A model generated the notes under the pieces. That model was not told where the DNA came from. It was given only the letters and a program-made list of their open reading frames with translations, and ran no database searches. A program made the position numbers and the translations under genes. DNA of 64,000 nucleotides from Rhodobacteraceae bacterium QY30. GTDB taxonomy: Bacteria; Pseudomonadota; Alphaproteobacteria; Rhodobacterales; Rhodobacteraceae. Of this stretch, positions 47,878 to 63,365 are shown in pieces (position 1 is the stretch's first letter; each line of letters starts with the position of its first letter). The DNA lies in assembly GCA_002356635.1 (NCBI GenBank), contig CP023454.1, positions 744,001-808,000 on the forward strand, written 5' to 3'.

Positions 47878-49221
47878 TCAGTTCCGAAGGTAGCTCTCCA
47901 TGCTGTCGTCCAGCGCATCCTTCCAAGGCGTGTGGTGCTTGGGCGCCATGGTGCCGGTGATGACCGACTTGTAGCAGTTGTTGCGGAAGCCCATGATGTC
48001 GGCCTTCTTGTGGTCCTTCCATTCGAAGAAGGCCTCGCAGGCGCCATCCACGTCGAAGGACGGATAGTCCGTCTCGGCGATCAGTTCCTTCACGTAGTCG
48101 CCCTGGTAGTGGATCGCGTCATGGGCGTCCTTGCCGGCATCCTCGCCCGCCACGCGGTCTTCCACGTCCTTCAGCAGCACGGCCTTGTCCGACGGGATCT
48201 GGATCTTGCCCATGATCGCGTCACGCACCCACCAGGCCTGGGCGTCGAACATGTTGAAGGTGAACCACTGGTCCTGCATGCCCAGGTAGAACATCCGCGG
48301 GTTATGGACCCAGACGACGCCCTTGTAGAGATCGGCGGTGGCGAGCCGGTTGGCCGTCTTCAGGCGCAGGTCGTCGGGCAGGAAGGGGAAGTGGTGCTTG
48401 TAGCCGGTGCACAGGATGATGGCGTCGAAGTCGGCCTTGCTGCCATCGCGGAAGGTCGCGGTGCGGCCCGAAACGCTTTCCAGCGCCGGGACTTCCTTCC
48501 AGTTGTCCGGCCATTTGAAGCCCATCGGCGCGTTGCGATAGGCGACGGTGATGGTCCTGGCGCCGTATTTCCAGCACTGCGAGCCGATGTCCTCGGCCGA
48601 GTAGGAGGAGCCGAGCAGCAGGATGTCCTTGCCCGCAAATTCGCGTGCATCGCGGAAATCATGGGCGTGCAGCACACGGCCGTTGAAGGTGTCGAAGCCC
48701 GGGTAGAAGGGAACGTTGGGGGTCGAGAAGTGGCCGGTGGCACAGACCACATGGTCGAAGACTTCGGAATAGACGTGATCGTTCGCCAGGTCGTGCACCG
48801 TGACGGTGAACTTGTTGGTGGCTTCATCGAAGGCGACATTGCGCACGGTGGTCGAGAAGCGGATCCATTTGCGCACGTCGGCCTTCTTCACGCGGCCTTC
48901 GATGTAGTCGAACAGCACCGCGCGCGGCGGGTAGCTGGCGATCTGCTTGCCGAAATGTTCCTCGAAGGAATAATCGGCGAATTCCAGCCCTTCCTTCGGG
49001 CCGTTCGACCACAGGTAGCGATACATCGACCCGTGGACCGGTTCGCCGTATTCGTCGACGCCCGTGCGCCAGGTGTAGTTCCACAGACCGCCCCAGTTGG
49101 ACTGCTTTTCAAAGCAGACGATTTCGGGGATGTCCTCTCCCTTCTGCGCGGCGGACTGGAAGGCCCGCAGCTGCGCCAGACCGGAGGGTCCTGCGCCCAG
49201 AACGGCGACTCGTTTCTTCAT
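47878..49221 (-). CDS. tmm: Trimethylamine monooxygenase
   Basis: Flavin-containing monooxygenase that oxidises trimethylamine to TMAO with NADPH and O2. The 447-residue length equals that of known bacterial Tmm. It has the FAD loop [20 protein letters not shown], the NADPH loop [12 protein letters not shown], the FMO fingerprint [11 protein letters not shown] and the Tmm-typical [20 protein letters not shown] and [16 protein letters not shown]. It is transcribed towards tdm and the globin gene. Confidence 0.96.
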
Positions 49222-49402: not shown

Positions 49403-50734
49403 TCAGATGTCGAGCGTGTTTTCGTGTTCCCAGCGCGAGAAGTGGGAAACGAAGCTGTTCCATTCCTTGTGCTTCAGCTTCAGATAGGCGCTCGAGAATT
49501 CCTCGCCCATCATCGCCTTCAGCGTCTTGTCCTTGTCGTATTCACGCAGCGCGTCCAGCAGGTTCAGCGGCAGCTTCGGGGCGCCCTTCACCTTGTGGCC
49601 GTCCTGGTACATGTCGATGTCCCAGCGGCGGCCGGGGTCGGCCTTGGTGCGCACACCATCCAGGCCGGCGGCCAGGATGACGGCTTGCAGCAGGTAGGGG
49701 TTCGCCGCACCGTCCGGCAGCCGCAGCTCGAACCGGCCGGGGCCGGGGACGCGCACCATGTGGGTGCGGTTGTTGCCGGTCCAGGTGACTGTGTTCGGCG
49801 CCCAGGTCGCGCCCGAGGAGGTGCGCGGCGCGTTGATGCGCTTGTAGCTGTTCACCGTCGGGTTGCAGATCGCCGCCAGCGCCGAGGCGTGCTTCATGAT
49901 GCCGCCCAGGAAGTGCCGGCCCTGGTCGGACAGCGACAGTTCCTTGGTGGCGTCGGCGAAGGCGTTCTTCTTGCCGTCCAGATCCCAGACCGAGATATGG
50001 GCGTGGCAGCCCGAACCGGTAAGGCCCTTGAAGGGTTTCGGCATGAAGGTGGCGCGCAGGCCATGCTTTTCGGCCACCGACTTCAGCATGAACTTGAAGA
50101 AGGACAGCTTGTCGGCGGTCTGAAGCACGTCATCGTATTTCCAGTTCATCTCGAACTGGCCGATCGCGTCTTCGTGGTCGCTTTGATAGGGCTCCCAGCC
50201 GAAGCCCATCATGTAGTCGCTGACTTCGGAAATCACGTCGTAGCGGCGCATGATCGCCTGCTGGTCGTAGCAGGGCTTCTCGGCCGTATCGAGTTCATCG
50301 GCGATGCTGGCGCCATCGGGCGACAGCAGGAAGAACTCGGGCTCGACGCCGGTCTTGACGCGCAGGCCTTCCTTCGCGCACTCGTCCACCAGCTTGCGCA
50401 GCACGTTGCGCGGCGCCTGGGCCAGCGGCTTGCCTTCCATCACGCAGTTGGCAGGAACCCAGGCAACCTCGGGTTTCCACGGCAGCTGGATGACACCGCT
50501 GGGATCGGGCACGGCCATCATGTCCGGATGCGCCGGCGTCAGATCGAGCCATGTCGCAAAACCGGCAAAACCCGCGCCGTCGACGGCCATGTCGTTGATG
50601 GCCTGGGTAGGGACCAGCTTTGCGCGCTGGCCCCCGAACAGGTCGGTGTAAGATACCATGAAGTACTTTACACCCTTGTCCTTTGCCCATTTCTCGAGGT
50701 CAGTGACCACGGATAGCTCCCTGTCGTGTTTCAT
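49403..50734 (-). CDS. gmaS: Gamma-glutamylmethylamide synthetase (glutamine synthetase family)
   Basis: Joins methylamine to glutamate with ATP. The 443-residue protein belongs to the glutamine synthetase fold, seen in GVEPEFFLL, the GCHAHISVW metal/ATP region, NSYKRIN and RVPGPGRFELRLPDGAANPY. The wide spread from ordinary GlnA and its place after mgsABC point to GmaS rather than housekeeping GlnA. It starts 5 bases after mgsC. A terminator follows. Confidence 0.9.
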   Translation of the reverse strand: MKHDRELSVVTDLEKWAKDKGVKYFMVSYTDLFGGQRAKLVPTQAINDMAVDGAGFAGFATWLDLTPAHPDMMAVPDPSGVIQLPWKPEVAWVPANCVMEGKPLAQAPRNVLRKLVDECAKEGLRVKTGVEPEFFLLSPDGASIADELDTAEKPCYDQQAIMRRYDVISEVSDYMMGFGWEPYQSDHEDAIGQFEMNWKYDDVLQTADKLSFFKFMLKSVAEKHGLRATFMPKPFKGLTGSGCHAHISVWDLDGKKNAFADATKELSLSDQGRHFLGGIMKHASALAAICNPTVNSYKRINAPRTSSGATWAPNTVTWTGNNRTHMVRVPGPGRFELRLPDGAANPYLLQAVILAAGLDGVRTKADPGRRWDIDMYQDGHKVKGAPKLPLNLLDALREYDKDKTLKAMMGEEFSSAYLKLKHKEWNSFVSHFSRWEHENTLDI

Positions 50735-50739
50735 TTTTA

Positions 50740-52068
50740 TTAAAATCCTCCGTTCCGGCCGGGGATCCAGGTCGTGCCTGCCAGGGGAACGCCCGCCATG
50801 GCGGCGGCTTCCACGTTCAGGGCAACCAGGTCTTCCGGCTCAAGGTTGTGCAGGTGATTCTTGCCACAGGCGCGGGCGATGGTCTGTGCTTCCAGCGTCA
50901 TCACCTTCAGGTAGTTCTTCAGACGACGGCCACCCAGGATCGGGTCGAACCGCTTGAACAGTTCCGGGTCCTGCGTGGTGATGCCGGCCGGATCCTTGCC
51001 TTCGTGCCAGTCGTCATAGGCATCGGCGGTGGTGTTCAGTTTCTGGTATTCGGATTCCAGTTTCGGGTCGTTGTCGCCCAGGGCCACCAGCGCCGCGGTG
51101 CCGATGGCGACCGCGTCGGCGCCCATCGCCATGGCCTTGGCCACGTCTGCGCCGGTGCGGATGCCGCCCGAGACGATCAGCTGCACCTTGCGATGCATGC
51201 CCAGGTCCTGCAGCGCCTTCACCGCCTGCGGGATACAGGCCAGGATCGGCATGCCGACGTGTTCGATGAAGACGTCCTGCGTTGCCGCGGTGCCGCCCTG
51301 CATCCCGTCCAGAACCACGACGTCGGCCCCGGCCTTCACCGCCAGCGCGGTGTCGTAGTAGGGGCGTGCGCCGCCGACCTTGACGTAGATCGGTTTTTCC
51401 CAGTCGGTGATCTCGCGGATTTCCAGGATCTTGATTTCCAGGTCGTCCGGGCCGGTCCAGTCAGGGTGACGGCAGGCCGAACGCTGGTCGATGCCCTTGG
51501 GCAGGTTGCGCATCATCGCCACGCGGTCGGAAATCTTCTGACCCAGAAGCATGCCGCCGCCGCCGGGCTTCGCGCCCTGGCCGACCACGACCTCGATGGC
51601 ATCCGCGCGGCGCAGGTCATCGGGGTTCATGCCGTAGCGCGACGGCAGGTATTGGTAGACCAGCGTTTTCGAATGGCCGCGCTCTTCCTCGGTCATGCCG
51701 CCGTCGCCGGTGGTGGTCGAGGTGCCGGCTTCCGACGCGCCGCGGCCCAGGGCTTCCTTGGCGGGGCCCGACAGGGCGCCGAAGCTCATGCCCGCGATGG
51801 TGATCGGGATGTCCAGGTGGATCGGCTTCTTGGCGTAGCGGGTGCCCAGCCAGACGTCGGTGGCGCATTTCTCGCGGTAGCCTTCCAGCGGATAGCGGCT
51901 GATCGAGGCGCCAAGGAACAGCAGGTCATCGAAGTGGGGCAGGTGGCGTTTCGTGCCGCCGCCGCGGATGTCGTAGATTCCGCTGGCGGCCGCGCGGCGG
52001 ATTTCCGCGTTGATCGCCGGGGTGAAGGTTGCCGAGTAGCGCGGCGGGGTATGGGGAAAATCGCTCAT
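50740..52068 (-). CDS. mgsC: N-methylglutamate synthase subunit C (FMN glutamate synthase domain)
   Basis: A 442-residue protein like the FMN-binding central domain of glutamate synthase. IAGMSFGALSGPAKEALGRG, TGDGGMTEEERGHSKTLVYQ, YLPSRYGMNPDDLRRADAIE, VGQGAKPGGGGMLLG and QLIVSGGIRTGADVAKAMAM-GADAV are clear. With MgsA and MgsB it converts gamma-glutamylmethylamide or methylamine plus glutamate to N-methylglutamate. It lies 12 bases after mgsB. Confidence 0.9.
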   Translation of the reverse strand: MSDFPHTPPRYSATFTPAINAEIRRAAASGIYDIRGGGTKRHLPHFDDLLFLGASISRYPLEGYREKCATDVWLGTRYAKKPIHLDIPITIAGMSFGALSGPAKEALGRGASEAGTSTTTGDGGMTEEERGHSKTLVYQYLPSRYGMNPDDLRRADAIEVVVGQGAKPGGGGMLLGQKISDRVAMMRNLPKGIDQRSACRHPDWTGPDDLEIKILEIREITDWEKPIYVKVGGARPYYDTALAVKAGADVVVLDGMQGGTAATQDVFIEHVGMPILACIPQAVKALQDLGMHRKVQLIVSGGIRTGADVAKAMAMGADAVAIGTAALVALGDNDPKLESEYQKLNTTADAYDDWHEGKDPAGITTQDPELFKRFDPILGGRRLKNYLKVMTLEAQTIARACGKNHLHNLEPEDLVALNVEAAAMAGVPLAGTTWIPGRNGGF

Positions 52069-52080
52069 GATCCTGATGCC

Positions 52081-52812
52081 TCAGTAGGCCGACGCATTGT
52101 CGATGTTGAAGTTGTAGAGCTTGCGGGCCGAGCCATAGCGGCGGAACTCTTCCGGGCGGGCCTTGCCGGTTGCTTCGCCACGGCGCAGCAGATCTTCCAG
52201 CGCCTCGTAATGTTCGGGGCGCATCTCCTTCTCGATGCAGTCCGCGCCCAGGGATTTCACCTTGCCGCGCACGAAGAGCTTGGCTTCGTAAAGCGAATCG
52301 CCCAGTGCGTCGCCCGCGTCGCCCAGAACGACCATGTGGCCCGACTGCGCCATGAAGCAGGACATGTGGCCGATGTTGCCGTGCACCACGATGTCGATGC
52401 CCTTCATCGAGATGCCGCAGCGCGAGGAGGCGTTGCCCTTGATGACCAGCAGGCCGCCGCGGCCGGTGGCGCCGGCATACTGGCTGGCGTCGCCTTCCAC
52501 GATGACGGTGCCCGACATCATGTTTTCCGCCACGCCCGGACCGGCCGAGCCGGTGATTCGGATGGTGGCCTGCTTGTTCATGCCGGCGCAGTAGTAGCCG
52601 GTGGTGCCGCGGACGGTGATGTCCAGAGGCGCGTCAACGCCCACCGCGATGGCGTGGCTGCCGCGGGTGTTGACGATTTCCCAGACGGTTTCGTTGGTCT
52701 GGACGCCGCGCAAAGCGTGCAGCGCCTGGTTCAGTTCGCGCAGGCCGCGGGCGGCGAGGTCGAAGGTGTGCATTTCGGATGCTCCGGCGGTAGGAAGACT
52801 CGGCTTGTTCAT
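52081..52812 (-). CDS. mgsB: N-methylglutamate synthase subunit B (GXGXG domain)
   Basis: A 243-residue protein with the GXGXG beta-helix of the glutamate synthase C-terminal domain: GSAGPGVAENMMSGTVIVEG, GATGRGGLLVIKGNASSRCG and KGIDIVVHGNIGHM. It supplies the structural arm that lies between the amidotransferase and FMN domains in the single-chain enzyme. The start lies 2 bases after the mgsA stop codon. Confidence 0.9.
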   Translation of the reverse strand: MNKPSLPTAGASEMHTFDLAARGLRELNQALHALRGVQTNETVWEIVNTRGSHAIAVGVDAPLDITVRGTTGYYCAGMNKQATIRITGSAGPGVAENMMSGTVIVEGDASQYAGATGRGGLLVIKGNASSRCGISMKGIDIVVHGNIGHMSCFMAQSGHMVVLGDAGDALGDSLYEAKLFVRGKVKSLGADCIEKEMRPEHYEALEDLLRRGEATGKARPEEFRRYGSARKLYNFNIDNASAY

Positions 52813-52814
52813 GG

Positions 52815-53711
52815 TCAGTGCTTCCAGAAATAGACGGTTGCGGGTTCCGGCTCCCAGACGCGGGCGTTCTCGATGCCCGGCAGGTTCACCAATGCGCGGT
52901 ATTCCGACCCGAAGGCGACGTACTGGTCGGTTTCAGCCATGACGGCCGGCTTGCAGGCGATCGGGTCGCGCACGACGCCGAAGCCGTCCTTTGTGCCGAC
53001 GACGAAGGTATAGAAACCGTCCAGGTCTTCCAGACCCGATTCCAGCGCCTGGCCCAGGTTCTGGCCTTCCTTCAGCTTCTGGCTGACGTAGGCGGCGGCC
53101 ACTTCGGTGTCGTTCTGAGTCTCGAACGTCATGCCCTGGCGAATCAGTTCCCGGCGCAGGCCGTTGTGATTCGAAAGCGAGCCGTTGTGGACCAGGCACT
53201 GGTCCGGGCCGGTCGAGAAGGGGTGCGCGCCCATCGTGGTGACGGCCGATTCGGTCGCCATCCGGGTGTGTCCGATCCCGTGCGAGCCCTTCATCTTCGA
53301 CACGTCGAAGCGGGCGGCCACGTCCTTGGGAAGTCCGACTTCCTTGTAGATTTCCAGGCTGTCGCCGACGCTCATGATCTTCATGCCGGGGCGCAGGTGG
53401 GCGAGCGCCGAGCGGGCGGCTTCGATCTGATCCATCGGCACTTCCAGAACGGCGTGGGTGCTTTTCACAAGCATCGCCACCGGCTGGCCCAGAGCTTCAT
53501 GCAGTTCGCCGTCCAGGCCGGCAAAGTCCTGGTCGGGATTGGCCGACTGGACGGTGATCTTGCCAAGACCGTCGTCGGGACGGCCGTAGATGGCGATTCC
53601 CGCGCTGTCCGGGCCCCGGTCGGTCATGGTGATCAGCATGTCCGTCAGCAGGGCGCCCAGCTGAGGTTCAAGCGATTTATCCTTTAAGAACAGTCCTACG
53701 ATCCCGCACAT
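52815..53711 (-). CDS. mgsA: N-methylglutamate synthase subunit A (class II amidotransferase)
   Basis: A 298-residue class II glutamine amidotransferase with the nucleophile Cys2 (MCGIVGLFLKDKSLEP) and AIYGRPDDGLGK. GIGHTRMATESAVT and PFSTGPDQCLVHNGSLSNHN line the active site. It corresponds to the glutaminase domain of glutamate synthase and is first in mgsABC-gmaS. The genes face the small membrane protein genes across a 277-base region rich in A and T near 53772-53800. Confidence 0.9.
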   Translation of the reverse strand: MCGIVGLFLKDKSLEPQLGALLTDMLITMTDRGPDSAGIAIYGRPDDGLGKITVQSANPDQDFAGLDGELHEALGQPVAMLVKSTHAVLEVPMDQIEAARSALAHLRPGMKIMSVGDSLEIYKEVGLPKDVAARFDVSKMKGSHGIGHTRMATESAVTTMGAHPFSTGPDQCLVHNGSLSNHNGLRRELIRQGMTFETQNDTEVAAAYVSQKLKEGQNLGQALESGLEDLDGFYTFVVGTKDGFGVVRDPIACKPAVMAETDQYVAFGSEYRALVNLPGIENARVWEPEPATVYFWKH

Positions 53712-53988: not shown

Positions 53989-54303
53989 ATGGATGTGACA
54001 TCCACTCTCAACAACAATTCGAATCTGACATCCAGGATCGAAGCCATGCACCGCCGTGACATGGCCGTCGCCTGGGCTTTCGTGATCGGGCTGTGGCTGG
54101 CCGTGATCTTCGTGGCGATGGCGACATGGAACCTGGCACCGAACCCGACGGCGCGAATCGTGCTCCTTGTCAGCGGCAGCATCGTGCTTTTGTTCAACAC
54201 GGCCGCGATCGTTGCCATGCTGCGCCACTACCGCGAAGACCGCGACTTCATGTACGGGCTGGACATCAAGTTCCTTGATGCCGCACGCGCTGCGAAAGGA
54301 TAA
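53989..54303 (+). CDS. Small two-pass membrane protein, first of three before a permease
   Basis: A 104-residue protein with two hydrophobic segments, about 28-50 (AVAWAFVIGLWLAVIFVAMA) and 58-80 (RIVLLVSGSIVLLFNTAAIV). The N-terminus is polar and Asn/Ser-rich. GGGAGGA lies 6 bases before the ATG, an excellent ribosome site, so it is well expressed. It is followed after 5 bases by the next small gene. I recognise no family. Confidence 0.8.
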   Translation: MDVTSTLNNNSNLTSRIEAMHRRDMAVAWAFVIGLWLAVIFVAMATWNLAPNPTARIVLLVSGSIVLLFNTAAIVAMLRHYREDRDFMYGLDIKFLDAARAAKG

Positions 54304-54308
54304 CCCCC

Positions 54309-54698
54309 ATGGCACGCTATGTTCCCCCGAAGCAGGGCAAGATCGGCCAGGTCATCGACGTGATCGTGCTTCTGGTGCTGGCGATCGGCTCGCTTTACAT
54401 CCCGCTTTTCATGGGCATGGCCGGCAGCACCAAGACCCCGCAGGTCGTGGAAAACCCCACCTGGGAAAGCCTGGGTCAGAACGCGACGATGGTGCAGCGC
54501 TGGAACGAACTGGGCTACGCGGACCCGGCCTCGGCGGCCGATATCATCACCGCCCGGTTCGACTACACCTTCAGCTGGTTCAGCCTCGGGCTGATGGTCG
54601 TCATCCTTGTCGGCTACTTCGCGATGATGCTGATCCTTTCCGAAAAGGAATACCGCGAAATGATCTCCGAGAAATTCGGCAACGGCGGGAGGCACTGA
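54309..54698 (+). CDS. Small two-pass membrane protein, second of three before a permease
   Basis: A 129-residue protein with hydrophobic segments at about 14-38 (VIDVIVLLVLAIGSLYIPLF) and 88-110 (FSWFSLGLMVVILVGYFAMM). Between them is a loop of about 50 residues (TPQVVENPTWESLGQNATMV) expected in the periplasm. The C-terminal end is charged (EKEYREMISEKFG). No domain is recognised. It starts 5 bases after the previous gene and ends 1 base before the next. Confidence 0.8.
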   Translation: MARYVPPKQGKIGQVIDVIVLLVLAIGSLYIPLFMGMAGSTKTPQVVENPTWESLGQNATMVQRWNELGYADPASAADIITARFDYTFSWFSLGLMVVILVGYFAMMLILSEKEYREMISEKFGNGGRH

Positions 54699-54699
54699 C

Positions 54700-54867
54700 A
54701 TGGATCTGTGGACTTTCCTGGAATACGCCGCCTGGGCCCTGTCGGCCCTGTTCGGAATCCTGATCGCCATCGACTGGATCCGCACCGACACGACCTATGA
54801 CGAAGACTTCCTCACCTCGTCCCGCGAAGGCGAGCTGGAAGCGATGACCGAACAACATCATCACTAG
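54700..54867 (+). CDS. Very small one-pass membrane protein, third of three before a permease
   Basis: A 55-residue protein: MDLWTFLEYAAWALSALFGI, then LIAIDWIRTDTTYDEDFLTS, an acidic stretch and HHH at the end. One membrane segment covers about residues 6-25. GGGAGG lies 7-12 bases before the ATG, inside the end of the previous gene. The tight spacing and good ribosome site support a real gene despite its size. The permease gene starts 11 bases after it. Confidence 0.72.
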   Translation: MDLWTFLEYAAWALSALFGILIAIDWIRTDTTYDEDFLTSSREGELEAMTEQHHH

Positions 54868-54878
54868 GGGCGCGGGCA

Positions 54879-56267
54879 ATGGTTGAAACGACACATGAGC
54901 CGACCGAACGCGTCGGACTTCTACGGGTGCTGGGGCCGGCCCACGTCTGGGCGCTGGGCGTCGGCATCGTTCTTGTGGGCGAATACATGGGCTGGAACTT
55001 TGCCGTCGGCAAAGGCGGGGCCTATGCGGCGCTGATGGCCTGCTGGTTCGCGGGCATCCTTTACACCTGCGTGGCCATGATCGACAGCGAGGTGACATCG
55101 ACCGTCGCCGCCGCGGGCGGTCAGTACACGCAGGCCAAGCACATCATCGGGCCGCTGATGGCCTTCAACGTCGGCCTCTACCTCGTGTTCGCCTACACGA
55201 TGCTGGAGGCGGGGAATGCCATCACCGTGGGCTTCCTTGTCGATACCGTGTCCGCCATGACCGGCCACAGCGGCATCGACCAGCGGCCCTTCATCATCCT
55301 GGCCATCATGTTCCTGGCCTGGCTGAACTACCGGGGGGTTCTGGCGACGCTGACCTTCAACCTGGTCATCACCGCCTTTGCCTTCACCGCGATCATCCTG
55401 CTGTTCCTGTCGCTCAAACCCTGGAGCGGCGACAGCCTGCTGGCCCATGCGGATCTGATGACCGATCTGCCCTATGGCTGGCTGGGCGTTCTGGCTGCCA
55501 TGCACTTCGGCCTGTGGTTCTACCTGGGCATCGAAGGCACGACCCAGGCCGCCGAGGAAGTTCGTTCGCCCGCGCGGTCGCTGCCCTTCGGCACGCTTGC
55601 CGGGATCATGACGCTGCTGACCGCCGCCACGCTGACCTGGTACATCTGCGTGGGCCTGATGCCCTGGGAATACCTGGGCCAGTCCGGGGTGCCGCTGTTT
55701 GACGCCGCGCGCCTGTCGGAAAGCAACGTGCTGATGGTGATCCTGGGCTTCGGAACGCTGTTTGCGACGCTCGCTTCGGCCAACGGCTGCATCAACGACG
55801 CCAGCCGCGCCTGGTTCGCGATGGGACGGGACCACTACCTGCCGGCATGGTTCGGCGCCGTTCACCCGAAGTATCGCACGCCCTACCGCGCGATCATCTT
55901 CCTGGTGCCGATCGCGCTGATCTTCGCGCTGGGCGCGCCGCTGGACCAGGTGATCACCTTCTCGATCCTGTCGGGCCTGCTGGAATACACCTTCATGCCC
56001 TTCAACGTGATCCTGTTCCGCAAGAAATGGCCGCTCGAATCGATCAAGCGCGGCTATGAACACCCGTTCCACCCGCTGCCCGCGATCATGCTGCTGCTTC
56101 TGTGCAGCGTGGCCTACTTCGCGGTGTTCCTGGGCTACGGCACGCAGTTGATCGCCATGCTGATCTTCTACGTGCTGGTGTCCTTGTGGTTCCACTTCTG
56201 GCGCTACCGCTTCGTCTACCGCGCCGGGCAGTTCACCATGCCGTGGAACAAGCCGGCCGGTTACTGA
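54879..56267 (+). CDS. APC-family amine/amino acid permease
   Basis: A 462-residue carrier with about 12 membrane segments. It resembles ethanolamine permeases (Eat type): LLRVLGPAHVWALGVGIVLV-GEYMGWNF, then AAGGQYTQAKHIIGPLMAFN and GIEGTTQAAEEVRSPARSLP. The C-terminal half has RAWFAMGRDHYLPAWFGAVHPKY. Because it sits between mgsABC-gmaS and dmmDABC, it probably imports an amine such as methylamine, dimethylamine or trimethylamine; that is inference from position. It ends a four-gene unit with three tiny membrane proteins. Confidence 0.85.
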   Translation: MVETTHEPTERVGLLRVLGPAHVWALGVGIVLVGEYMGWNFAVGKGGAYAALMACWFAGILYTCVAMIDSEVTSTVAAAGGQYTQAKHIIGPLMAFNVGLYLVFAYTMLEAGNAITVGFLVDTVSAMTGHSGIDQRPFIILAIMFLAWLNYRGVLATLTFNLVITAFAFTAIILLFLSLKPWSGDSLLAHADLMTDLPYGWLGVLAAMHFGLWFYLGIEGTTQAAEEVRSPARSLPFGTLAGIMTLLTAATLTWYICVGLMPWEYLGQSGVPLFDAARLSESNVLMVILGFGTLFATLASANGCINDASRAWFAMGRDHYLPAWFGAVHPKYRTPYRAIIFLVPIALIFALGAPLDQVITFSILSGLLEYTFMPFNVILFRKKWPLESIKRGYEHPFHPLPAIMLLLLCSVAYFAVFLGYGTQLIAMLIFYVLVSLWFHFWRYRFVYRAGQFTMPWNKPAGY

Positions 56268-56321: not shown

Positions 56322-57008
56322 GTGGATCCTTTGACACTGACGGCCGGTGCGGCCGCAATGACCGCCGGGGCGGTCACGACCCTGGTCCGCCGCGCCTCGC
56401 TCGCCCGGGCACGGGACCGGGCCGCCATCTTCGACAACATCGCGCCGCATTTCGATGATGTGCGGCTGAGCCCGTCGCCGGACGGTTTTGCCCGGATGAC
56501 CGGCCGGCGGGACGGCAACCGATTCGATCTGCGCGTCATGCAGGACACGCTGACGATGCGGAAACTGCCCGCGCTGTGGCTGCTGGTGACGCTGACCGAA
56601 CGGCAGCCCATGGCCGCCACCACCGACATCCTTCTGCGCCCCTCGGGGGGCGAGCCGTTCAGCCCCTTCATGCGGCTGCCCGTCACGGTGACGCCACCGC
56701 CTGGCCTGCCGGCCGACGCCGGGGTGCGGAGCGACGGGAAGGGCACTCTGCCCGATCCCCAGGTATTGGCCCCGCATCTGGGGATCCTGCACGATACCGC
56801 CGCAAAAGAGCTTCTGTTGACCCCCGCGGGCCTGCGGCTGGTCTGGCTGACAGAGGAGGCCGACCGCACCCGCTATCTGCTTTACCGGGACGCCGAGATG
56901 GGGCGCAGGCCCTTGCCCGCCGCGACGGCGCTGCGCCTGACGTCGGCCCTGTCCGCGCTGGCCGCGGACCTTGCGGAAAGCGTTGCCGAGAAAAGGAAAT
57001 CTGCCTGA
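56322..57008 (+). CDS. Hypothetical protein, possibly membrane-anchored
   Basis: A 228-residue protein that begins with GTG. An Ala/Thr-rich stretch at residues 4-20 (LTLTAGAAAMTAGAVTTLVR) is the only hydrophobic part and may be an anchor. The remainder looks globular, with LRVMQDTLTMRKLPALWLLV and GILHDTAAKELLLTPAGLRL. No family is recognised. Its stop overlaps the start of the next gene (ATGA). It follows the permease after 54 bases and may belong to the same transcript. Confidence 0.68.
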   Translation: MDPLTLTAGAAAMTAGAVTTLVRRASLARARDRAAIFDNIAPHFDDVRLSPSPDGFARMTGRRDGNRFDLRVMQDTLTMRKLPALWLLVTLTERQPMAATTDILLRPSGGEPFSPFMRLPVTVTPPPGLPADAGVRSDGKGTLPDPQVLAPHLGILHDTAAKELLLTPAGLRLVWLTEEADRTRYLLYRDAEMGRRPLPAATALRLTSALSALAADLAESVAEKRKSA

Positions 57009-57304
57009 TGGCGCGTCCGTTGCCGCCGCTGCTGGTGCTGGCTGTCGCGATCCTGCTTCCGGGCGGGGGGCAGGTGATGAACCGCCAGCCCCTGCGCGGG
57101 ATGGTGTTCCTGTTCTTCGCCGTGCTTCTGGGCGGTTTCACCCTGAAGACGGCCGCGCCCGACGTGTCGATCATCGGCAAGCTGGCCGGCGGGCTGTTCG
57201 TCCATGCGATGGCGATCTTTGATGCCTACCGGATCGCGCGCATCCGGCACGAGGTCTGGGCCTATGGAAATCGTGCCGCAAAACCGGGCGAACGACCGGA
57301 CTAA
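57008..57304 (+). CDS. Small hypothetical membrane protein
   Basis: A 98-residue protein with a hydrophobic N-terminus (PLPPLLVLAVAILLPGGGQV) and two more apolar stretches at about 33-47 and 57-72, then a charged tail. The pattern PGGGQVMNRQPLRGMVFLFF followed by FDAYRIAR resembles TM2/DUF5683-like membrane proteins. It overlaps the preceding gene by one base pair set (ATGA). Function unknown. Confidence 0.68.
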   Translation: MARPLPPLLVLAVAILLPGGGQVMNRQPLRGMVFLFFAVLLGGFTLKTAAPDVSIIGKLAGGLFVHAMAIFDAYRIARIRHEVWAYGNRAAKPGERPD

Positions 57305-57567: not shown

Positions 57568-59349
57568 ATGACAGATGCCACGATTACGCAAGGCGAGGTC
57601 AGCGAGGGTTCGCTGCATCGCGCGCTGGACTGGAGGGGGGCATTCTGGGTTGCGGCCGGTGTGCCGCCCCTCGTGCTGTTCTCGATCGGCGGGATTGCCG
57701 GGATTACCGGGAAGCTGGCATTTGTGGTCTGGATCATCTCGATGGTGATGGGGTTCCTGCAATCCTTCACCTATGCCGAGATGGCAGGAATGTTCGGCAA
57801 CAAGTCGGGCGGTGCCTCGATCTATGGTGCAACGGCCTGGCTGCGCTATTCCAAGCTGATCGCGCCGCTGTCGGTGTGGTGCAACTGGTTCGCCTGGTCG
57901 CCGGTGCTGTCGCTGGGCTGCGCAATCGCCGCGGGCTACATCCTGAACGCGCTGGCGCCGATTCCGGCCGCCGATGCGGCAGCCGTCACGTCCTGGGTCG
58001 GGGCGCACCTGGCGGATTACACCGCGCAGTCCCAAACGGTCATCGACTATATTTCGGCCAATGCCGGAACCTCGGTCGAGGATGCGATCAAGGCCGTTGC
58101 GACCACCGATGCCATCGCGGCGCTGACCCCCACGGTCCGCACCTGGGAAGCGGCCTCGATCGCCATTCCGGGGCTGGGTACGCTGCACTTCAACTCGACC
58201 TTCGTGATCGGCGTGCTTCTGATGCTGGTCATCTTCGCGATCCAGCATCGTGGCATCCATTCGACCGCCCGCACGCAGAAGGTTCTGGCGATCGTCGTTC
58301 TGGTGCCGCTGCTGCTGGTGGGTCTGGTGCCGATCCTGACCGGCGCCATCGACAGCGCCAACGTGACGGCACTGGTGCCGCCGGCAGGGCTGTATTCCGC
58401 TTCGGAAGGTGTCTGGAACGTCGGCGGCTGGACGCTGTTCCTGGGCGGCCTCTACATCGCGGCCTGGTCGACCTACGGCTTCGAAACGGCGGTCTGCTAT
58501 ACTTCGGAACTCAAGAACCCCAAGACCGACACTTTCAAGGCGATCTTCTTCTCGGGCCTTCTGTGCGTGGTGTTCTTCTTCCTGATTCCCTTCTCGTTCC
58601 AGGGCGTCTTCGGCCACGCCGGGATGCTGGCGCCGGGAATCGTGGACGGAACGGGCGTGGCCGAGGCACTGGGCTCGATGGTCAGTTCGGCCAAGGTGGT
58701 GACGCAGCTGTTCGTGATTCTGATGATCCTGGCGCTGTTCCTGTCGATCATGACGGCGATGGCGGGATCGTCGCGGACGCTTTACCAGGGATCGCGCGAC
58801 GGCTGGCTGCCGAAATACCTGAGCCACGTGAACGAACATGGCGCGCCCACGAACGCGATGTGGACCGACCTTGGCTTCAACGTGATTCTGCTGGCGCTGG
58901 CCTCGGATCCGGGCGGCTACTTCTACGTTCTCGCCATCTCGAACGTCGGCTACATCACCTTCAACTTCCTCAACCTGAACGCCGGCTGGATCCACAGGGT
59001 TGATTCGGGCGACCGGCCGCGTGCCTGGCGCGCGCCCACCTTCCTGATCGGGGTCAACACGGTGCTGGCCTTCGTCAATGCGCTGTTCCTTGGCGCCGGC
59101 GCCAAGGTCTGGGGCTATGAGGGGGCGCTTTGGTCCGGTGTGGTCTTTGCGTCGCTGATCATCCCGGTGTTCCTGTTCCGGCACTACGTCCAGGACAAGG
59201 GCAAATTCCCGGCGGCGGTCTATGAAGACATGGGCCTGCCCTATGGATCGCTGGGAACGCGCCGCGCCGGCCTGTGGCCCTATCTGGCACTGATCGCCGG
59301 GGCTGCGGTGGTGCTATGGGCGAACTGGTTCTTCGTCCTCCCGACCTGA
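57568..59349 (+). CDS. APC-family permease with a large loop insertion
   Basis: A 593-residue carrier of the amino acid/polyamine/organocation superfamily. The start is MTDATITQGEVSEGSLHRAL, and the core shows SMVMGFLQSFTYAEMAGMFG, NKSGGASIYGATAWL and AWSTYGFETAVCYTSELKNP. Between about residues 125 and 210 there is a long, mostly polar insert (VGAHLADYTAQSQTVIDYIS ... TTDAIAALTPTV) that ordinary members lack; it would lie outside the membrane. Its place directly before dmmDABC suggests uptake of dimethylamine or another methylated amine, which is inference. AGGAGGG precedes the ATG. Confidence 0.85.
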   Translation: MTDATITQGEVSEGSLHRALDWRGAFWVAAGVPPLVLFSIGGIAGITGKLAFVVWIISMVMGFLQSFTYAEMAGMFGNKSGGASIYGATAWLRYSKLIAPLSVWCNWFAWSPVLSLGCAIAAGYILNALAPIPAADAAAVTSWVGAHLADYTAQSQTVIDYISANAGTSVEDAIKAVATTDAIAALTPTVRTWEAASIAIPGLGTLHFNSTFVIGVLLMLVIFAIQHRGIHSTARTQKVLAIVVLVPLLLVGLVPILTGAIDSANVTALVPPAGLYSASEGVWNVGGWTLFLGGLYIAAWSTYGFETAVCYTSELKNPKTDTFKAIFFSGLLCVVFFFLIPFSFQGVFGHAGMLAPGIVDGTGVAEALGSMVSSAKVVTQLFVILMILALFLSIMTAMAGSSRTLYQGSRDGWLPKYLSHVNEHGAPTNAMWTDLGFNVILLALASDPGGYFYVLAISNVGYITFNFLNLNAGWIHRVDSGDRPRAWRAPTFLIGVNTVLAFVNALFLGAGAKVWGYEGALWSGVVFASLIIPVFLFRHYVQDKGKFPAAVYEDMGLPYGSLGTRRAGLWPYLALIAGAAVVLWANWFFVLPT

Positions 59350-59522: not shown

Positions 59523-60662
59523 ATGACCAATTCCTGGAGATTTTCGGCTCTCGCAGACCGTCACCGTGCGCTCGGCTCCAACCTGGAAGACTGGAGCGGC
59601 ATGGGCACCGCATGGTCCTATGAAAAGGGTGATCCGGATGCCGAATACATGGCGATCCGCACCAAAGCCGGTTTGATGGATGTCTCGGGCCTGAAGAAGG
59701 TGCATCTGACCGGTTCGGCCGCCAGCCACGTGATCGAACGCGCAACGACCCGCAACATCGAAAAGCTGATGCCGGGCCGTTCAGTCTACGCGACGATGCT
59801 GAATGACGCGGGCAAGTTCATCGACGACTGCGTCATCTATCGCATGGGGCCGAACAGCTTCATGGTCGTCCACGGTTCGGGCGGCGCCTACGAACAGCTG
59901 ACGATGGCGGCGACGGGCCGCGATGTGTCGATCCGCTTCGACGACAACCTGCATGACCTGTCGCTGCAAGGCCCGCTGGCCGTCGACTACCTGGAAAAGC
60001 ACGTCGAAGGCATCCGGCAACTGCCCTATTTCGCGCATATGCAGACCAGCCTGTTCGGCAAGCCGGTGATGATTTCGCGGACGGGCTATACCGGCGAACG
60101 CGGCTACGAGATCTTCGTGCGCGGTCAGGATGCGGTCATGGTCTGGGACCGGATTCTGGAAGAAGGCAAGTCGATGGGGATCATCCCCTGCCGCTTCACC
60201 ACGCTCGACATGCTGCGGACGGAAAGCTACCTGCTGTTCTTCCCCTACGACAACTCGGAAATGTATCCGTTCGAAAACGAAGGCCCCGGCGACACGCTGT
60301 GGGAACTGGGCCTCGATTTCACCGTCAGCCCTGGCAAGACCGGCTTCCGCGGCGCGGAAGAACATTACCGGCTGAAGGGCAAGGAACGCTTCAAGATCTG
60401 GGGCCTGAAGCTGGAAGGCAAGAACGTTCCGGGCAACGGCGCACCGGTCATGCGCGACGGCAAGCAGGTGGGTGTCGTCACCCAGGCCATGCGCTCGCCG
60501 CTGAACGAGTGGACCATCGCCATCGCGCGCCTGCCGGTGGATTGCGCCAATGACGGCACCAGGCTGACGGTGAACTGCGCCACGCATGGCGAGATTGCCG
60601 CGACGACGCACTCGATGCCGTTCTACGATGTCGAGAAAAAGCGCCGCACCGCCAAGGGCTAA
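59523..60662 (+). CDS. dmmD: THF-dependent aminomethyltransferase of the dimethylamine demethylation system
   Basis: A 379-residue GcvT/DmdA-like protein. It has GLMDVSGLKKVHLTGSAASH, SRTGYTGERGYEIFVRG and the C-terminal VVTQAMRSPLNEWTIAIARL. DmmD belongs to the dmmDABC system that removes a methyl from dimethylamine and is thought to transfer the C1 unit to THF. DMSP demethylase DmdA is a close relative, but the gene order dmmD-A-B-C and the neighbouring amine genes decide. AAGGGGGG precedes the ATG. A terminator-like hairpin follows before dmmA. Confidence 0.85.
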   Translation: MTNSWRFSALADRHRALGSNLEDWSGMGTAWSYEKGDPDAEYMAIRTKAGLMDVSGLKKVHLTGSAASHVIERATTRNIEKLMPGRSVYATMLNDAGKFIDDCVIYRMGPNSFMVVHGSGGAYEQLTMAATGRDVSIRFDDNLHDLSLQGPLAVDYLEKHVEGIRQLPYFAHMQTSLFGKPVMISRTGYTGERGYEIFVRGQDAVMVWDRILEEGKSMGIIPCRFTTLDMLRTESYLLFFPYDNSEMYPFENEGPGDTLWELGLDFTVSPGKTGFRGAEEHYRLKGKERFKIWGLKLEGKNVPGNGAPVMRDGKQVGVVTQAMRSPLNEWTIAIARLPVDCANDGTRLTVNCATHGEIAATTHSMPFYDVEKKRRTAKG

Positions 60663-60674
60663 GCCACTCTTCCT

Positions 60675-60707
60675 GACGCGCCGGGCCCCCGCCCGGCGCG
60701 ATTTTCC
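60675..60707 (+). terminator. Terminator-like hairpin between dmmD and dmmA
   Basis: CGCGCCGGGC, loop CCCC and GCCCGGCGCG form a perfect 10-bp GC stem, followed by ATTTTCC. It lies in the 61-base gap between two genes expected to be co-transcribed, so it may lower or adjust expression of dmmABC relative to dmmD. Confidence 0.65.
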
Positions 60708-60723
60708 ATATCGCAGGTGACGG

Positions 60724-61344
60724 ATGACGAATTCGGTTCTGGAAGGAACGATGCGGTCCCGCCCGGTCTACGGGGTCCTGGAACCCCGCCCCGGCAAGGC
60801 GCATCTGATCGTGGCCGACGGCGAGGGGGCCGGGGCCGTGGTCGATCTGGTGGCCCGCGCGGGCGAGACGGCGCCCGCCATGCTGGCCCGCACGCACATC
60901 ATCTACATGCCCGGGCCGAATGGCACGGACGCCTTCGAAAGTCTGAAGGCGCTGGGTGCGGCGCAGGCATTTCGCACGCATGATTATTCCACCGCACAGC
61001 CGCGCCTGAAGAAGGTGCTGGGCGATGCCCACATGGGCCTTCAGATCTACACCACGGGGACCGAGGGTCTGATGGGCCAGGTCCTGCGCGACGTGATGGA
61101 GGCGGGCCTGCCTGCCCAGGCGGTGCAGACCGAACATCGCGGGTCCACGGTGCGCCGCGTGCAATGCGTCCATTGCAAGGGCATCACGGAAAATGTCCGC
61201 ACCGATCCCTTCCAGTGCAGCCATTGCGGACTTCACCTGTTCGTGCGCGACCACTATTCGCGCCGTCTTGCCGCCTATCAGGGCGTCAACATCGATGCGG
61301 AAGACCCCGGTGAGGTTCCGCCAGCCGTGGAGCGGTTCAAATGA
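60724..61344 (+). CDS. dmmA: Dimethylamine monooxygenase subunit DmmA
   Basis: A 206-residue cytoplasmic protein. A zinc-ribbon-like pattern lies at about residues 148-172 (VQCVHCKGITENVRTDPFQC, then SHCGLHLFVRDHYSRRLAAY), with four Cys. The N-terminal part (RSRPVYGVLEPRPGKAHLIV) is unlike common domains. It corresponds to DmmA of the three-part dimethylamine monooxygenase. It overlaps dmmB by 4 bases. The name rests on the C-terminal pattern and the operon order. Confidence 0.8.
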   Translation: MTNSVLEGTMRSRPVYGVLEPRPGKAHLIVADGEGAGAVVDLVARAGETAPAMLARTHIIYMPGPNGTDAFESLKALGAAQAFRTHDYSTAQPRLKKVLGDAHMGLQIYTTGTEGLMGQVLRDVMEAGLPAQAVQTEHRGSTVRRVQCVHCKGITENVRTDPFQCSHCGLHLFVRDHYSRRLAAYQGVNIDAEDPGEVPPAVERFK

Positions 61345-62306
61345 GCGTCGGAGCCCCCAAGATCCCCGTTGTCGTGGCCGAGGTGGTCGAACTGAACCCG
61401 CTGATCAAGCGGTTCCGGTTCGTCCGCACCGATGGCAAGCCGATGCCGACCTTTTCCGGTGGCGCCCATATTGTCGTCGAGATGGACGACAACGGCACCC
61501 GCCGCATGAACCCCTATTCGCTGATGAGCGATCCGACCGATACCTCGGGCTTCGAAATCTCGGTCCGGCGCGACGATGCGGGGCGGGGCGGGTCGCTTTA
61601 CATGCACAACCATGTCCGGCCGGGCATGGCGATGCAGGTCAGCCATCCGGTCAACCTGTTCGGCCTGGACCTGCGCGCGAAGAAGCACCTGCTGATCGCG
61701 GGCGGCATCGGCATCACGCCGTTCATCGCCCAGATGACCCAGCTTGAACACCTGGGCCACCGGTTCGAGCTGCATTATTCCGTCCGAAGCCCGGAACTGG
61801 GCGCCTATGCCGACGACCTGAAGTCGCGCTACGGCGACCGGGTGCATATCTACTACGACAACCAGAAGCACATGATCCCGCTGGCCGAATTGCTGGAGGG
61901 GCAGCCGCTGGGCACCCATCTGTACGTCTGCGGCCCGAAGGGCATGATCGCCTGGGTGCTGGGCAGCGCCGAGGCGGCGGGCTGGCACCCGAGCACCCTT
62001 CATTCGGAGGAATTCCTGGCGCCCCCCGTCGGCCATGCCTTCGAGGTGGAGCTGGCGGCGTCGCGCAAGACCATTACCGTCGGCCCCGCGCAATCGCTGC
62101 TGGAGGCGATGGAGGCCGCCGGCGTCGATGCGCCCTATCTCTGCCGGGGCGGCGCCTGCGGGCAGTGCGAAACCGACGTGCACCGCTGCGACGGCTCCAT
62201 CGAACACAACGACCATTGGCTGACGCCAGAGCAGAAAGCCTCGAACACCAAGATCATGCCCTGTGTTTCGCGCTTCCACGGCGCGACGCTTGTCATCGAC
62301 CGCTAA
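61341..62306 (+). CDS. dmmB: Dimethylamine monooxygenase reductase subunit DmmB
   Basis: A 321-residue PDR/VanB-type reductase that passes electrons from NAD(P)H through flavin and a 2Fe-2S cluster to the oxygenase. The flavin site is RRMNPYSLMSDP, the nucleotide site LIAGGIGITPFIAQMTQ and YVCGPKGM. The C-terminal ferredoxin has CRGGACGQCETDV with a fourth Cys in MPCVSRF. It overlaps dmmA by 4 bases and lies 12 bases before dmmC. Confidence 0.9.
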   Translation: MSVGAPKIPVVVAEVVELNPLIKRFRFVRTDGKPMPTFSGGAHIVVEMDDNGTRRMNPYSLMSDPTDTSGFEISVRRDDAGRGGSLYMHNHVRPGMAMQVSHPVNLFGLDLRAKKHLLIAGGIGITPFIAQMTQLEHLGHRFELHYSVRSPELGAYADDLKSRYGDRVHIYYDNQKHMIPLAELLEGQPLGTHLYVCGPKGMIAWVLGSAEAAGWHPSTLHSEEFLAPPVGHAFEVELAASRKTITVGPAQSLLEAMEAAGVDAPYLCRGGACGQCETDVHRCDGSIEHNDHWLTPEQKASNTKIMPCVSRFHGATLVIDR

Positions 62307-62318
62307 AGGAGAAGCGCT

Positions 62319-63365
62319 ATGGGACTTGAATTCAACGAGGAAACCTTCCGCGGCGACTTCAGCTTCAAGAACTCGCCCAAGGCCATCAAACGGTTCCCGT
62401 TCCCGTTCCCGGAAGACAGCTACATGTATTCCGTGAACATGGAACCGCATGTGCCGGGGCCGAAGGGATCGGTCTTCGAACATACCTTTGACGTTGACGA
62501 ACACTACGTGTCCGAAATGCGCGACCGCGCCATGGTGCTGGCCGACGATCCGCTGCGCTGCCAGTCGCTGCCGCACATGACGCTTGCGGGCTGGGACCTT
62601 CTGGAACTGATCATGGAGTCGAAGGCCCGTGATTACCCCCACTGGTTCGAGCTGCACAAGAACGGCAACAAGTGGCACTGGATCAACCGGCCGCTGGAGA
62701 TCGAGCAGAAGTTCACCTTCCTCGATGAAACCACGCTGCCCTGCGGTCCCCTGGAATACATCACCCGCCAGACCCAGGGCGACTTCACGCTTCAGGACCA
62801 GCGGGACAACAACCTGTTCATCGAAGCCGGGATGGTGACGACGCAGGCGGACTGGTCGCTGGATTTCGACATCGGCATGTCCTTCCAGGAATGGCATGCG
62901 CCGGTGCCGATGGCGCATGAACTGGGTGTCTTCGACCGGGCGCTGAAATTCCTGCTGAAGCTGCAACTCGGTGCGCCGGTGCGGCGCTTCAACTGGACGA
63001 TGACCGTCGATCCGCTTCTGGACACCAGCCCGGAAAACTACCCGAAATGGGGCCCGACCAAGACCACCCTGACGATGGACAACATCGGCCGTCGCCAGCA
63101 TCTGCGCGTTGAATTGCAGACCCTGCACCGGCTGCCACGGTCGAACGCGATCGCCTTCCCGATCCGCGCCTACCTGATCAGTTTCCAGGATCTGGTGACG
63201 GTGCCGAAATGGGCCCGCCGTCTGCACCGCGTGATCCGCGACGTGCCCGAGCCGCTGGCGACCTACAAGGGCTTCCTGCGCAACCGTCCGCTGATGGTGG
63301 AATACCTGTCGCAATTCGACGATGGCAAACCGACCAGCCCCGGCTGGTGGCCCGAACCCGAGTAA
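62319..63365 (+). CDS. dmmC: Dimethylamine monooxygenase, heme-dependent oxidative N-demethylase DmmC
   Basis: A 348-residue DUF3445 protein, the family of heme-dependent oxidative N-demethylases. It should demethylate dimethylamine to methylamine and formaldehyde using O2 and electrons from DmmB. Family stretches seen: YMYSVNMEPHVPGPKGSVFE, CQSLPHMTLAGWDLLELIME, FLDETTLPCGPLEYITRQTQ and VELQTLHRLPRSNAIAFPIR. The start follows AAAGGAGA. A strong terminator closes the operon. Confidence 0.87.
   Translation: MGLEFNEETFRGDFSFKNSPKAIKRFPFPFPEDSYMYSVNMEPHVPGPKGSVFEHTFDVDEHYVSEMRDRAMVLADDPLRCQSLPHMTLAGWDLLELIMESKARDYPHWFELHKNGNKWHWINRPLEIEQKFTFLDETTLPCGPLEYITRQTQGDFTLQDQRDNNLFIEAGMVTTQADWSLDFDIGMSFQEWHAPVPMAHELGVFDRALKFLLKLQLGAPVRRFNWTMTVDPLLDTSPENYPKWGPTKTTLTMDNIGRRQHLRVELQTLHRLPRSNAIAFPIRAYLISFQDLVTVPKWARRLHRVIRDVPEPLATYKGFLRNRPLMVEYLSQFDDGKPTSPGWWPEPE

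Follow-up and report, generated by a model that had tools for sequence, protein, structure and literature searches.

A candidate multi-component methylammonium importer: an APC permease clade and its three operon-encoded small membrane proteins

In the stretch of DNA analysed here (the window, 64,000 nucleotides from Rhodobacteraceae bacterium QY30), genes for three small membrane proteins, s1, s2 and s3, directly precede a gene for a permease of the APC superfamily. We propose that these four proteins probably constitute an obligate multi-component importer of methylammonium for the N-methylglutamate pathway. The proposal is based on the exclusive co-occurrence of the small genes with the permease, on the surrounding genes for methylated-amine metabolism, and on the finding that in other genomes an Amt-like gene occupies the slot of the operon. 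The preliminary description of this DNA had suggested a composite amine transporter; these three lines of evidence speak for that suggestion, and from them we infer both the complex and its substrate.

A conserved operon and its distribution

The genes for s1 (53989-54303, 104 aa), s2 (54309-54698, 129 aa), s3 (54700-54867, 55 aa) and the permease (54879-56267, 462 aa) lie on the plus strand with intergenic gaps of 5, 1 and 11 bases, and Kyte-Doolittle peaks indicate two, two and one membrane segments in s1, s2 and s3, respectively. Sizes, segment counts and gaps all reproduce what had been noted earlier, namely three small membrane-protein genes ahead of an APC permease. That account of the operon holds for the four genes, and can be extended by two further conserved genes downstream: h228 (56322..57008, plus strand), encoding 228 aa with one N-terminal hydrophobic segment, and h88 (57008..57304, plus strand), encoding 98 aa with three hydrophobic segments, whose start codon shares one base with the h228 stop. 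Among loci with sufficient flank, nearly all have both genes behind the permease, and these loci span three classes. The h228 protein belongs to no Pfam family and has a predicted soluble domain behind its single hydrophobic segment. These two proteins may be further transporter components, making a six-gene unit. In an ortholog from another class (L168:7758-8192), a universal-stress-protein-like gene is found between the permease and h228. Promoter and terminator scans returned nothing exceeding chance.

Orthologs from other genera of the family are 70-76% identical to s1, 52-69% to s2 and 64-76% to s3; calculated against seven loci, pN/pS is 0.21-0.30 for s1, 0.37-0.49 for s2, 0.25-0.47 for s3 and 0.16-0.24 for the permease. 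Because ortholog identity is high and pN/pS is well below 1, we conclude that s1, s2, s3 and the permease are true protein-coding genes and not chance open reading frames. Their short spacing is conserved: across 82-96 loci, the median gaps are 2 (s1/s2), 9 (s2/s3) and about 0 bases (s3/permease), with frequent overlaps. The 55-residue gene had been described as easily missed by gene callers. Current plasmid records derived from RefSeq do annotate it, under out-of-series locus tags (JCM7686_RS24840, AA2016_RS34695) which suggest that it was a late addition to the annotation.

We determined the distribution of these genes in a set of 248 Rhodobacteraceae genomes in which each genus is represented once. 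Nine of them contain s2, and the same nine contain an orthologous permease (82-87% identity); no other permease match exceeds 33% identity. When GTDB genomes were scanned with s1, 80 loci were retrieved, and in 79 of them s1, s2, s3 and the permease occur in this order on one strand; in the remaining locus the contig stops just past s1. Searching 337 alphaproteobacterial and 398 phylum-wide genomes with a permease profile, which separates the clade (716 bits or more) from other proteins (163 bits or fewer), identified 16 more orthologs outside Rhodobacteraceae, one of them in another class, with s1-s2-s3 directly upstream in every case (16/16). A betaproteobacterial plasmid, from Paraburkholderia caribensis, also carries the triplet and the permease. 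HMM searches of 44 loci with Eat-like or other APC permeases found no triplet within about 1.5 kb. A search for small genes lacking the permease, proposed in the preliminary description, has thus been run: contig ends aside, the two were never apart in the sampled genomes.

The distribution of the small genes follows that of the permease rather than that of the methylamine pathway. The pathway gene mgsC is present in 76 of the 248 Rhodobacteraceae genomes, as against nine for the triplet. Across the 53 loci with all genes, distance correlation with the permease is 0.76 for s1, 0.90 for s2 and 0.74 for s3, compared with 0.57 for mgsC. Genes of one operon are inherited together and would be expected to correlate, and so these values, derived from sequence distances, support a single unit rather than contact. 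We also considered that the triplet might be part of the pathway and not of the permease system; the mgsC distribution, the gene content of mgs regions (below) and the distance correlations contradict this.

The permease clade and its small partners

The permease scores 101.6 bits against PF00324 (cut-off 24.6) and 99.6 bits against PF13520 (cut-off 27); the Pfam search matched these two AA_permease models only, with no match to Amt/Mep/Rh (PF00909). Its top-scoring NCBIfam model is that of the ethanolamine permease Eat (TIGR00908), at 184 bits, below half the equivalog cut-off of 381.75; hence, the "Eat-like" permease of the preliminary description should not be taken as Eat. Nor is it TmoP, since NF053774 (cut-off 690) gives no match; the neighbouring tmoP gene (57568..59349, plus strand), which encodes a separate APC permease for trimethylamine N-oxide, scores 826.8 bits with that model. 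The permease instead represents a distinct clade. D69, E110 and D307 are invariant within it and missing from Eat-like and other APC proteins. An acidic residue at the position of E35, in TM1, also occurs in 15 of 23 Eat-like sequences. We infer from the alignments that D69, E110 and D307, together with E35, would fit a small cation without a carboxylate. The C-terminus (QFTMPWPxPxGY) is nearly invariant across the clade up to the final residue.

In the predicted model, the permease part is an APC transporter fold, matching y+LAT1 (8xyj; Z 39.2, rmsd 2.8 over 433 residues), AdiC (5j4n_B; Z 38.2, rmsd 2.9, 416 aligned) and GkApcT (6f34_A; Z 37.7, rmsd 2.4, 417 aligned).

Each of the small proteins has a conserved motif near its end. 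s1, with two TM helices, has a conserved cytoplasmic C-terminal tail (NTAxIxAMxxHYxxDxxFxYxLDIxxLD). s2 also has two TM helices, joined by a loop of about 45 residues that the positive-inside rule predicts to be periplasmic, and is conserved at its C-terminus (SxxEYRxxIxEKF). s3 has one TM helix and a conserved tail (YSExxLTSSREGExEA). The conserved cytoplasmic tails of s1, s2 and s3 and the permease C-terminus are candidate docking surfaces. No Pfam or NCBIfam model reaches its cut-off with s1, s2 or s3, and ten diverse members of each likewise have no Pfam family. Comparison of the small proteins with the PDB gave no match; the best E-values for s1 and s2 profiles, 0.19 and 0.022, are not meaningful. 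In one genus (g285; L123, L124, L125), the s2 loop domain has an insertion of about 30 residues, giving an s2 of about 158 aa.

A locus from a Pseudorhodobacter MAG (L100:269-2518) carries all four genes in one frame, separated by single stops and 0-12 bases; hence, the four proteins could be folded as a single chain. We read the stops as glycine, which gave one covalent, natural-sequence chain of 749 residues with linkers of 1-5 residues. AlphaFold2 returned a pLDDT of 64 and a pTM of 0.67 with a 116-row alignment, and a pLDDT of 83.1 and a pTM of 0.83 with 129 rows that included distant APC proteins. In the co-fold, pLDDT is 82-94 for s1, 94-96 for the s3 helix, 83-90 for the s2 loop domain and mostly 85-97 for the permease; the s2 helices are low, at 38-54. 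The permease makes up 62% of the chain, and from the TM-score formula (d0 of about 9.4 Å, error of about 20 Å for unplaced residues) we estimate that a pTM of about 0.67 would be expected if the remainder were unplaced. Since 0.83 exceeds this value, the small proteins seem to be placed relative to the permease, as judged from pTM and pLDDT in two runs of a covalent chain. Prediction of a four-protein complex had been suggested earlier as a check; the co-fold is consistent with contacts, and is not proof of them, being judged from the pTM and pLDDT of a covalent chain.

GkApcT has been described as having an N-terminal lateral helix (PMC5803215). Alignments of GkApcT to the co-fold begin at model residues 268-270, inside the s3 tail. 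s3 may therefore take the place of that helix, or the overlap may be an artefact of the fusion. The s3 tail is too short for its sequence to be compared with the N-terminal helix of CAT proteins, and the N-termini of Eat-like proteins are variable.

Methylated-amine genes around the operon

The operon diverges from a gene for an mgsA-type glutamine amidotransferase subunit of N-methylglutamate synthase (52815..53711, minus strand). Beyond it on the same strand are genes for the mgsB-type GXGXG subunit (52081..52812), the mgsC-type glutamate-synthase subunit (50740..52068), gmaS (type III glutamine synthetase/gamma-glutamylmethylamide synthetase; 49403..50734; TIGR03105, 659 bits, cut-off 469.6) and tmm (trimethylamine monooxygenase; 47878..49221; NF058570, 835 bits, cut-off 675). 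On the plus strand, a dmm cluster consisting of a dmmD-like gene and three dimethylamine monooxygenase genes (59523..63365; Pfam DmmA-like, HODM_asu-like) follows tmoP. The adjacency of gmaS and mgsABC in the window (49403-53711) is shared by many other loci. In most loci, from three classes, mgsABC, gmaS, dmm, tmm or tmoP is found beside the operon, mgsABC and gmaS being the commonest neighbours. In a minority of loci the operon lies away from mgs and gmaS, for example in several Paracoccus, on Aminobacter pAA01 and at L110, hinting at a wider substrate range. At L105, L089, L110 and L176, the operon is near sarcosine-oxidase-type genes or has no amine genes nearby.

The Amt-like family is known for transport of NH4+ and CH3NH3+. 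We fetched 60 mgs regions, to which the window adds one further case of the permease operon. The permease operon alone is present in five, an Amt-like gene alone in 17, both in one and neither in 37. The Amt-like gene, near mgs in 18 of the 60 regions, is often in the slot divergent from mgsA, and at L214, L215 and L221 it occupies exactly the slot of the permease operon. A Pseudomonas operon, gmas-mgsABC-amt, has been described as encoding a methylamine transporter (PMC8292978). Replacement in the slot is suggestive only, because in 37 of 60 mgs regions no transporter of either kind lies next to the genes. The Amt-like genes found near mgsA in genomes that lack the permease operon (L214, L215, L220, L221, L226) fall into at least two subgroups, which share about 45% and 68-100% identity with the copy at L220. 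In one genome (G191, locus L211), the permease operon and an Amt-like gene share one methylated-amine island.

Proposed transporter, alternatives and known systems

In the transporter that we propose, the permease would be an APC-fold transport domain that brings methylammonium (monomethylamine) into the cell; the acidic residues specific to its clade would bind the small cation, which has no carboxylate, and the membrane potential or an ion gradient would power its import. The three small proteins would be bound accessory subunits, with s1 and s3 packing as additional helices with conserved cytoplasmic tails and s2 contributing a small periplasmic domain. They are probably required for stability or activity of this permease clade, and h228 and h88 are perhaps additional partners. 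A more specific but less probable arrangement, which we offer tentatively from the model, is an APC transporter that functions solely as a hetero-oligomer of four membrane proteins (possibly with h228 and h88), in which s3 supplies in trans the cytoplasmic lateral helix found at the N-terminus of CAT-type transporters, and s1 and s2 gate or stabilize the path of methylammonium.

Exclusive co-occurrence would also be accounted for if s1, s2 and s3 were dedicated factors for assembly, insertion or stability that are absent from the working transporter, and the small protein MgtS on GkApcT chiefly affects stability and sustained uptake, not the initial rate (PMC5803215). However, three assembly factors for a single permease would be unusual, and the invariant cytoplasmic tails of s1-s3 and the permease C-terminus fit lasting contacts better, as do the high pLDDT of s1 and s3 and the pTM of 0.83; we consider such a transient role rather unlikely. 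Somewhat less doubtful, though still unlikely, is a real complex with another substrate, such as dimethylamine, trimethylamine, a methylated amino acid (N-methylglutamate) or an ethanolamine-like amine. The closest named family of the permease is that of the ethanolamine permease, and some loci lie by sarcosine-oxidase-type genes, or by dmm or tmoP without mgs, or have no amine gene nearby; against this, the operon is most often flanked by mgsABC and gmaS, and elsewhere its slot is taken by an Amt-like gene.

Conserved cytoplasmic tails on all four proteins, and the predicted soluble domain that follows one hydrophobic segment in h228, would also suit a transceptor, in which the permease-like protein and its small partners detect methylamine outside the cell and pass on a signal, transport not being their main task. 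We regard this as improbable, since neither a signalling domain nor a regulator consistently accompanies these proteins and Amt-like genes fill the slot elsewhere. That the small genes sit in a gene-dense catabolic island would be expected of unrelated passengers of that island, but the triplet stays with the permease off the island and is missing where the island lacks the permease, leaving this reading a negligible chance.

To our knowledge, bacterial APC permeases usually act alone, as the preliminary description stated of APC permeases in general. APC transporters with partners are already known, and a single-helix partner has precedent in SLC7/SLC3 heterodimers and in the GkApcT-MgtS crystal. 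The SLC7/SLC3 pairs LAT1-4F2hc and b0,+AT-rBAT each join an APC-fold transport subunit to a partner that has one TM helix. The SLC3 partner, however, is one large ectodomain protein (glucosidase-like), whereas the partners here are three unrelated bacterial proteins of 55-129 aa; s1-s3 (104, 129 and 55 aa) have no Pfam domain, and so no SLC3-type glucosidase-like ectodomain. GkApcT, a bacterial CAT-type transporter and one of the permease's nearest relatives of known structure, was crystallized with the small single-helix protein MgtS on TM5 (5OQT, 6F34; PMC5803215); MgtS was derived from the E. coli expression host and is not an operon partner, in contrast to the three obligate neighbours described here. 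Eat (TIGR00908) and its kin are the nearest relatives outside the clade and have the acidic residue at TM1 position 35 in common with it, but lack adjacent small genes as well as D69, E110 and D307. TmoP of the Methylocella type (NF053774) is an APC permease of the same island and substrate class, yet a different protein. The Amt of gmas-mgsABC-amt operons likely performs the same task from the same position beside mgsABC-gmaS, but is of an unrelated protein family and has no small partners. The open-licence literature searched contains no description of a small-protein APC system or of this candidate methylamine permease. In the libraries and open-licence papers searched, we found no other bacterial APC clade whose operon encodes three small membrane proteins as obligate partners.

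Methylamine entry in bacteria with the N-methylglutamate pathway is largely unassigned beyond Amt-type genes; the operon offers a specific candidate for many bacteria of soil and water. A real complex would be a bacterial, obligately multi-subunit APC transporter and could inform why human SLC7 transporters need partners. The operon also adds three small membrane protein families, linked to one transporter clade, that have no Pfam or NCBIfam entry. The neighbourhood recurs on Paracoccus aminophilus pAMI6, where the small genes are all labelled "hypothetical protein".
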